A stretch of DNA of 64,000 nt from Embleya scabrispora DSM 41855 (GTDB taxonomy: Bacteria > Actinomycetota > Actinomycetes > Streptomycetales > Streptomycetaceae). How positions within the stretch are numbered: position 1 is the stretch's first letter; every line of letters begins with the position of its first letter. The DNA lies in contig NZ_KB889607.1 of assembly GCF_000372745.1 (NCBI RefSeq), positions 124,001 to 188,000 on the forward strand, given 5' to 3'. A model generated the notes under the pieces. That model was given only the letters and a program-made list of their open reading frames with translations. It searched no databases and was not told where the DNA came from. Shown here in pieces: positions 34,801 through 35,846 of the stretch. A program made the translations under genes and the position numbers.

Positions 34801-35490
34801 GTCGCCGCCGGCGGAGACCTCGGCGGGCTTGGCCCCGCCGGCGCCGCCCGCCGCGAGCACGGTCACCAGCAGCGCGTCGAGTTCGCCCAGCGCCGCGAAC
34901 AACGACTCGTCCGCGCCGCGCAGCGACGCGCACCAGATCGGTACGGGCCGCCCGCCCGCCTCCTCGATCGCCGCGCACAGGTCGTCCACGAAGGCGGTGT
35001 TCCCGGCGAGGTGGTGGGCGCGGTAGTAGAGCACGCCCACGGCCGGGCCCTCGACCTCGCGGGCCGACCGATCCAGCCGACCCCAGGAGGGCACCTCGAC
35101 GGGCGGCTCGAAGCCGTGTCCGGTGAGCAGCAGCGTGTCGGAGAGGAAGCGGTGCAGCTGGGTCAGGTTGGCCGGGCCGCCCTGGGCGAGGTAGGCGTGC
35201 GCCTGCGCGCTCACCCCGGCGGGTACGGTCGCCAGTTCCATCAGCGCGGCGTCGGCGGCGAGTTCTCCGCTGAGTACGACGACCGGGCGCGGGCCGGCCA
35301 GCAGCGCGTCCAGGCCCGCCTCCCACGCGCGTCGCCCGCCGAGCAGGCGGACCACGACCAGGTCGGTGCCGTCCAGGAGCGCGGGCAGGTCGGCGACGTC
35401 GACGCGGGCCGGGTTGGCCAGGCGCCACTCGCCCTCGCTCGCCTTGGCGCTGAGCAGGTCGGTGTCGGATGTCGACAGGAGCAGAATCAC
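31843..35490 (-). CDS. cobN: Cobaltochelatase subunit CobN
   Basis: This 1215-residue large subunit inserts cobalt into hydrogenobyrinate a,c-diamide together with CobS/CobT-like AAA subunits, which are not in this window. The CobN/magnesium-chelatase H signature is seen in [38 protein letters not shown]-like sequence, in pieces such as [20 protein letters not shown], and in later [20 protein letters not shown] and [19 protein letters not shown]. The GTG start at 35490 has GGAGG seven bases upstream and overlaps the stop of a 49-residue ORF in GTGA. It is controlled by the B12 riboswitch upstream. Confidence 0.95.
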   Translation of the reverse strand: [1215 protein letters not shown]

Positions 35491-35636
35491 CGGGCGCCTC
35501 CGCCGATGCCGGCGTGGCGAACCACGTGGTGGATGTCGTGGTCGAACGCGCCGCGGCAGCGCGCGGTGATGTCGCTGAAGTGGGTGTCGCAGTCGAGGCT
35601 GCGTACGCAAGAACGCCGGCAGGACGAAATCGTCAC
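35487..35636 (-). CDS. Cys/His-rich 49-residue protein coupled to cobN
   Basis: A GTG-started frame of 49 codons lies between the B12 riboswitch and cobN, and its stop overlaps the cobN start in GTGA. Roughly nine in ten codons end in G or C, as in real genes here. The product has four Cys (SCRRSC, DCDTH, ARC) and five His, three of them in HDIHHVVRH, which suggests metal binding. GGAGAG lies about nine bases upstream. It has no membrane segment, so it is not CbtB. I know no named family. It could be a cobalt-handling protein, or a leader peptide that tunes cobN translation. Confidence 0.6.
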   Translation of the reverse strand: MTISSCRRSCVRSLDCDTHFSDITARCRGAFDHDIHHVVRHAGIGGGAR

Positions 35637-35674
35637 CTGGAGCGCCTCTCCGGGGTCCTCGCCCCATCGGACTC

Positions 35675-35846
35675 GGGGTGAGACGCGCAGTTCCTGACTC
35701 CCGGTCACGTCGCAGCCGTCGGATGACGTCGTACGGCGGAGCCGGTCACAGTGGCGGGACCGTCCCGGGATCACACCGGGTTCCTGCCACGCCCTCCCCG
35801 CGCCGGTAGGGCCGGCGCGGGGCCAGCATCGCTCAGTGGCCCGCCT
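35675..35846 (-). ncRNA. Cobalamin (B12) riboswitch
   Basis: Read on the minus strand, the 5' part has the CCCGCGCCGG-CCGGCGCGGGG stem. The core follows with GGTGTGATCCCGGGACGGTC and CCGCCACTGTGACCGG, and the 3' part has the B12 box GAGTCAGGAACTGCGCG. These elements and their order match the adenosylcobalamin riboswitch class. It precedes the 49-residue ORF and cobN, so B12 should repress the cobN-cobL-cobM operon. Boundaries are approximate. Confidence 0.92.

Follow-up and report, generated by a model that had tools for sequence, protein, structure and literature searches.

The locus and the question it raises

In Embleya scabrispora DSM 41855, a 49-codon open reading frame stands between a cobalamin (B12) riboswitch and cobN, raising the question of whether such a short upstream frame (uORF) is kept for the peptide that it encodes or for the act of being translated. 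The locus lies on contig NZ_KB889607.1 of an 11.4-Mb assembly, within a stretch of 64,000 nucleotides that was analysed as a whole (the window). An initial annotation had described a 49-residue, Cys/His-rich product, a ribosome site, and a GTGA overlap with cobN, and had considered both a cobalt carrier and a leader peptide controlling cobN to be plausible. The descriptive part of this account was borne out: the frame is present, its product contains four Cys and five His, including the stretch HDIHHVVRH and a CX3C motif (SCRRSC) near the start, and both the ribosome site and the overlap are where they were proposed to be. The annotated interval, 35487-35846, takes in the uORF and the riboswitch together, which are separated in the following list.

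35688..35786, minus strand: cobalamin riboswitch, Rfam match to RF00174 (model positions 45-169 of 189)
35651..35666, minus strand: P13-like hairpin TGGGG-CGAGGA-CCCCG with one G-U pair, read from the sequence
35645..35651, minus strand: Shine-Dalgarno sequence (SD) of the uORF, GGAGAGG, ending 8 nt before the GTG
35487..35636, minus strand: putative relay uORF of 49 codons with GTG start and TGA stop, read from the sequence and also present in three same-genus genomes
35636 and 35489-35487, minus strand: start GTG and stop TGA of the uORF, read from the sequence
35607..35636, minus strand: first ten uORF codons, MTISSCRRSC, from an alignment of four same-genus genomes
35497..35501, minus strand: SD of cobN, GGAGG, within the 3' end of the uORF
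35487..35490, minus strand: GTGA, in which the uORF stop overlaps the cobN start (GTG at 35490)
31843..35490, minus strand: cobN, cobaltochelatase subunit of 1215 aa (TIGR02257), the gene predicted to be controlled

The riboswitch match scores 41.1 bits, above the gathering threshold of 31.5 for RF00174, and the identity of CobN is given by the NCBIfam model TIGR02257 (1119.3 bits, cut-off 822.05). The P13-like hairpin sits directly 5' of the uORF SD, with one base common to both, and is presumably L13, the partner of L5, as suggested by its sequence and by general riboswitch anatomy. A simple consensus scan of 35440-36000 found neither an intrinsic terminator nor a promoter, and the leader does not fold more stably than shuffled sequences (z -1.3). 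By eye, the open reading frames downstream of cobN resemble further cob genes.

A putative ribosome-landing site and three layouts before cobN

To place the frame in context, 150 genomes from the family of the window (Streptomycetaceae) were searched with cobN, giving 149 matches in 146 genomes; 147 loci were analysed, leaving out one at a contig edge (G137) and the second piece of another (G011). An exact pattern for the B12 box found one within 600 nt of cobN in 77 of the 147 loci, and the uORF counts given here cover these 77. In the other 70, the riboswitch may sit further upstream, as in Streptomyces lividans, where a riboswitch is described before cobD-cobQ-cobN.

In all 77 box-bearing loci the SD is immediately preceded by a hairpin of 5 bp (G-U allowed), and in each of them exactly one start codon lies 5-12 nt behind that SD, a range that was picked after the loci had been inspected, with ATG, GTG, or TTG codons outside it disregarded in seven loci (L067, L072, L074, L076, L088, L097, and L102). 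What this start codon opens differs among the loci. In 24 it is the start of cobN itself (direct layout), which marks this position as the point of ribosome delivery by the riboswitch. In nine it begins an in-frame N-terminal tail of CobN (tailed layout: L080, L090, L092, L095, L099, L100, L102, L104, and L176), with tails varying in length (7 to about 67 residues), so that CobN starts may be annotated inconsistently. In the remaining 44, all within the counted set, it opens a separate frame that stops exactly at the NTGA overlap with cobN (relay layout). The relay layout is found under genus labels g1 (four loci; the genus of the window), g2 (three), g8 (one), g9 (one), and g14 (35), the direct layout under g9 (13), g14 (three), g6 (three), g13 (three), and g16 (two), and the tailed layout under g6 (four), g9 (three), g7 (one), and g5 (one). 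More than one layout thus occurs within each of the labels g6, g9, and g14.

The register of the frame is kept at variable length

In GC-rich DNA, an open frame by itself says little. Among the 44 relay loci, 30 have no stop in one wrong frame and 37 have none in the other, which makes openness alone weak evidence; the TGA at the cobN start comes free with the Met-Ile beginning of CobN, and the information therefore lies in the register alone. That register is strict. Not one of the 77 landing-site starts lies in the third frame, and among the 53 loci with an intervening segment this compares with an expectation of one third by chance. The relay frames run from 17 to 125 codons and take 28 distinct lengths, so that any tree needs 27 or more changes of length, each a multiple of three. 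A hand calculation puts the chance of 27 in-register changes at (1/3)^27, about 1e-13, or at (2/3)^27, about 2e-5, if in-frame tails are also allowed, figures that serve only as a guide because the loci are related and mostly under one genus label, and because repeat units divisible by three could ease the result. With 35 of the 44 relay loci under g14, the loci are not independent. Judging from these comparisons, what goes beyond chance is the conserved register together with the fixed start position across relatives.

The same holds close to the window. In three same-genus relatives the frame is open and ends at the NTGA of cobN, with 51, 46, and 48 codons. Loss of the frame in relatives that keep the riboswitch and cobN had been named beforehand as the outcome that would count against the initial annotation; the check was run, and the frame is conserved in them. 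In form, then, the suggestion of a leader controlling cobN is supported, with a frame that is conserved and locked to the cobN start; the peptide itself drifts.

The peptide drifts between two conserved ends

Between its ends, the uORF varies in sequence and length even within the genus, always with in-frame changes of length. Between the window and G031 (L031-L034), the uORF differs by 3 silent and 16 replacing codon changes, and the first 49 codons of cobN by 9 silent and 4 replacing changes. In the closest same-genus pair (L032/L033) the uORF shows 3 silent and 4 replacing changes, and replacing changes outnumber silent ones in all six within-genus pairs. The claim of GC-rich third positions was correct as far as it went (uORF GC content by codon position 0.63/0.57/0.88), but the profile differs from that of cobN starts, for which the pooled first 49 codons of the 44 uORF loci give 0.76/0.47/0.96.

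Searches with the product point the same way. A Pfam/NCBIfam search with the 49 residues returned no family at E values up to 1, and a search of the 150 family genomes gave one clear match outside its own genome, in the same genus (55% identity, E 2.5e-6). The frame stands before cobN in the other two same-genus genomes as well, yet the peptide search missed it in both: one was without any match, and the other had only a weak one at a different place. Matches of lower significance (E 0.004 to 1, with 83 of the 150 genomes having some match at E up to 1) were taken for chance.

The Cys/His content that makes the window's peptide conspicuous is not shared. At least four Cys occur in 2 of the 44 uORFs and at least five His in 2; Cys beyond residue 12 is absent in 33, four have no Cys at all, and HDIHHVVRH is present only in the peptide of the window. 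A cobalt carrier was accordingly rejected as a candidate, since the Cys/His ligands are not conserved and only a single early Cys is common; the proposal of the initial annotation likewise fails on the dominance of replacing changes and the lack of a Pfam/NCBIfam family match. As far as the aligned loci allow it to be judged, the conserved property is the reading frame and not the peptide.

The two ends are the exceptions. At the 3' end, the last four residues read GG(A/S)R in the four genomes of the genus and overlap the SD of cobN, whose position inside the uORF would explain the conserved C-terminus. At the 5' end, the first ten codons are nucleotide-identical in these four genomes and contain GACG-NNNN-CGTC. 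Across the 44 uORFs, a Cys lies within residues 1-12 in 38, and many g14 relay frames begin with MRCRMP or MHQRCRMP. From these alignments, the first ten codons in the genus and the early Cys appear to be more conserved than a content-free relay needs.

Either the RNA or the peptide could lie behind this. A hairpin of at least 5 bp within the first 24 nt is present in 21 of the 44 uORFs compared with 18% of shuffles, and one of at least 4 bp in 29 of 44 compared with 45% of shuffles. Among the 24 direct cobN starts there is none at either length (shuffles 12% and 35%). The excess of hairpins at uORF starts is suggestive. In the window the hairpin occupies 35614-35636 (minus strand); GACG-NNNN-CGTC occurs in g1 and g2 loci with changing loops, and much of the MRCRMP group has ATGCG-NNNN-CGCAT.

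A proposed riboswitch-gated relay of ribosomes to cobN

We propose that the 49-codon frame is probably a riboswitch-gated relay that would pass ribosomes to cobN by termination-reinitiation, the peptide being incidental. When coenzyme B12 is scarce, the SD GGAGAGG would be free and ribosomes would initiate at the GTG at 35636, translate the 49 codons, terminate at the TGA at 35489-35487, and reinitiate at the cobN GTG that overlaps this stop, aided by the SD of cobN itself (GGAGG, 35497-35501) inside the uORF. When B12 is bound, the first SD would be masked via the P13-like hairpin, the uORF would remain untranslated, and expression of cobN and the genes behind it would fall. Under such a scheme, selection would maintain the place of the start codon relative to the riboswitch, one frame free of stops, the SD of cobN, and the NTGA overlap. 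Translation of the uORF, its coupling to cobN by reinitiation, the switching, and the direction of the B12 response are all inferred here from sequence.

The proposal gains support by analogy, since the same layout has been shown by experiment to act as a relay at ppe2 of Mycobacterium tuberculosis. There, as described by Kipkorir et al. (2024, PMC11260477), a B12 riboswitch with a Class IIb-like aptamer that binds several forms of B12 controls a uORF (uPPE2) whose translation is required for PPE2, and the coupling is mainly by termination-reinitiation at AUGA. The cobN locus resembles it in having (i) a B12 riboswitch directly upstream of the uORF, (ii) a uORF SD that adjoins the L13 hairpin (a putative identity at cobN), and (iii) an NTGA overlap of the uORF stop and the gene start in a cobalamin-related operon. 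It differs in that the controlled gene would be cobN itself and not a PPE gene, and in that the layout recurs in 44 loci of the family, unconstrained in length and sequence, and alternates with direct and fused layouts.

A further difference lies in the second ribosome site. At cobN, an SD with a duplex energy of -7 kcal/mol or better is present in 43 of the 44 relay loci; among sampled positions, the share is 0.3% within the middle of the uORF and 6.8% within the body of cobN. The SD of cobN is stronger than that of the uORF (median -10.8 versus -7.8 kcal/mol). Therefore, cobN could also be initiated without coupling. None was found before ppe2 in the work described in PMC11260477, so the cobN arrangement would be a variant that works like the ppe2 relay and not a strict member of its kind.

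More broadly, B12 riboswitches before actinomycete cobN may present a fixed ribosome-landing site behind which the downstream frame, be it the gene, a tailed gene, or a meaningless peptide, is interchangeable and translated whatever stands there. Content-free relays would then have evolved again and again as a standard element joining riboswitch and cobN, and relay length may tune the switch. This generalization is offered tentatively, and we would not yet call it the probable one.

Other explanations of the frame

Among the other explanations, the one that survives best, although we consider it unlikely, is that ribosomes on the uORF shield C-rich RNA from Rho. With B12 bound, the naked segment would load Rho and transcription would end before cobN, leaving reinitiation a secondary role. 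The pooled uORF middles are indeed rich in C (C 0.49, G 0.30), C exceeds G by more in the uORF than at the cobN start in 32 of the 44 loci, the simple scan found no intrinsic terminator, and the text of Kipkorir et al. (PMC11260477) considers Rho likely for metE. The effect is modest, however (mean skew 0.16 versus 0.105), and the uORF of the window reaches only the 88th percentile of same-size stretches within it. Moreover, a shield does not need an exact NTGA register in every locus, and at ppe2 the results of shifting the stop codon, as given in PMC11260477, spoke against Rho.

The frame could also be a by-product, with insertions between the riboswitch and cobN remaining open by chance in GC-rich DNA and cobN translated, uncoupled, from its own SD. 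The frequent openness of the wrong frames (30 and 37 of 44) and the presence of that SD fit this explanation, but it does not account for the empty third frame among the 53 segment-bearing loci, the 28 lengths that are all congruent, or the start position kept behind the SD in 77 of 77, and we regard it as very unlikely. To a similarly slight degree we would credit a -1 shift at the NTGA overlap, by which a minor share of CobN would be made as a fusion with an N-terminal tail. CobN evidently tolerates tails, since the nine tailed loci have a genuine in-frame extension at this position, and Kipkorir et al. (PMC11260477) saw a small amount of fusion protein; nevertheless, 43 of the 44 relay loci retain the start and SD of cobN. 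Least probable of all is a functional small Cys/His protein, acting as cobalt carrier or sensor and possibly sensing metal on the ribosome like CruR (the precedent for a metal-sensing uORF; PMC9426467), because the four Cys, the five His, the CX3C, the position before a cobalt chelatase, and the early Cys of 38 of 44 loci are set against a variable Cys/His number, a length of 17-125 aa, dominant replacing changes, no family match, and a sequence without the CXXC and C-terminal RAPP of CruR.

With the relay by termination-reinitiation as the preferred reading, the locus can be compared with other short frames that head operons. The M. tuberculosis metE/uMetE2 locus, in the account given in PMC11260477, has in common with cobN a B12 riboswitch and a translated uORF (translation of the cobN uORF being predicted), but uMetE2 lies inside the aptamer and represses MetE. 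CruR (DUF2946) of Bordetella, as described in PMC9426467, is likewise a metal-related short frame that heads an operon and exerts control in cis, yet it acts through its peptide, with conserved CXXC and RAPP, whereas in the cobN uORF conservation of the peptide stops after the first codons. The amino-acid leader peptides of Streptomyces, for instance in S. lividans (PMC8079986), share the position of a short frame before a biosynthetic operon; codons for the amino acid made by the operon are over-represented in them, and no such codon run is present in the cobN uORF. Unlike amino-acid attenuators, the latter also has a riboswitch upstream and, in the simple scan, no terminator.

Elements of the proposed mechanism are familiar. 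A review (PMC12548453) gives -4 overlaps as the commonest spacing of closely placed frames, and describes short frames whose sole role may be ribosome delivery. A literature search, with most subscription papers and all bioRxiv preprints outside its scope, returned no report of a uORF or relay before cobN. The words Streptomyces and cobN are absent from the main text of PMC11260477, as is cobN from the main text of an S. griseus profiling paper. In the literature searched, M. tuberculosis provides the one riboswitch-uORF relay of this kind. The cobN relay would be a clean case of a frame for which selection seemingly acts on translation itself, irrespective of the peptide, and this bears on small-protein annotation, where relay frames would otherwise enter as unknown peptides. 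It also makes testable how far a riboswitch can reach through a relay and what determines reinitiation at NTGA.

Relay frames outside the family

In other families, the best 82 of 125 matching genomes were examined, and the pattern found a B12 box in 36 of these, of which at least two (L247 and L297) look like chance; of the 45 named loci, 44 were read, L231 having no gene start. Two Saccharopolyspora genomes carry relay frames of 17 and 16 codons before cobN that end on NTGA. For the ppe2 relay, the authors of PMC11260477 speculate that it arose when the locus was invaded by a PPE gene. Streptomycetaceae and Saccharopolyspora have this arrangement ahead of cobN, which implies that such relays arise without PPE invasion. 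Under another family label, relay frames of 41, 25, 16, and 14 codons end on NTGA (L232, L233, L234, and L240). Under label f17, three frames of 26-31 codons behind a B12 leader are positioned differently, two overlapping cobN by 13 nt (L292 and L302) and one stopping 8 nt short of it (L293).

The other layouts recur as well. By eye, cobN lies directly behind the SD in 14 Nocardia loci and in Actinokineospora, and a short in-frame CobN tail is present in at least four loci (L241, L242, L256, and L261). Frames ending on NTGA were counted only with an SD behind the riboswitch, which leaves aside four such frames (L262, L272, L301, and L316) and seven in Nocardia (L192, L195, L197, L201, L203, L207, and L208) that begin in or upstream of the riboswitch end and have no SD.

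Other B12 riboswitches in the E. scabrispora genome

Elsewhere in the genome that contains the window, on contig C25 (L179:1720-2016), a 98-codon frame stands directly behind a second strong cobalamin riboswitch. Its product matches a cobalamin adenosyltransferase over the start of that protein only (Pfam Cob_adeno_trans, E 9.4e-5, 23 bits with a cut-off of 24). The TTGA at its end lies inside another frame, which by eye has a Cys motif like that of ferric-iron reductases. Possibly an adenosyltransferase gene has decayed here and been put to new use as a relay frame. On contig C180, three weak cobalamin riboswitch matches are clustered (L184-L186), two over the cut-off and one just under it, and they precede frames that by eye resemble secreted proteins, with signal-peptide-like starts.
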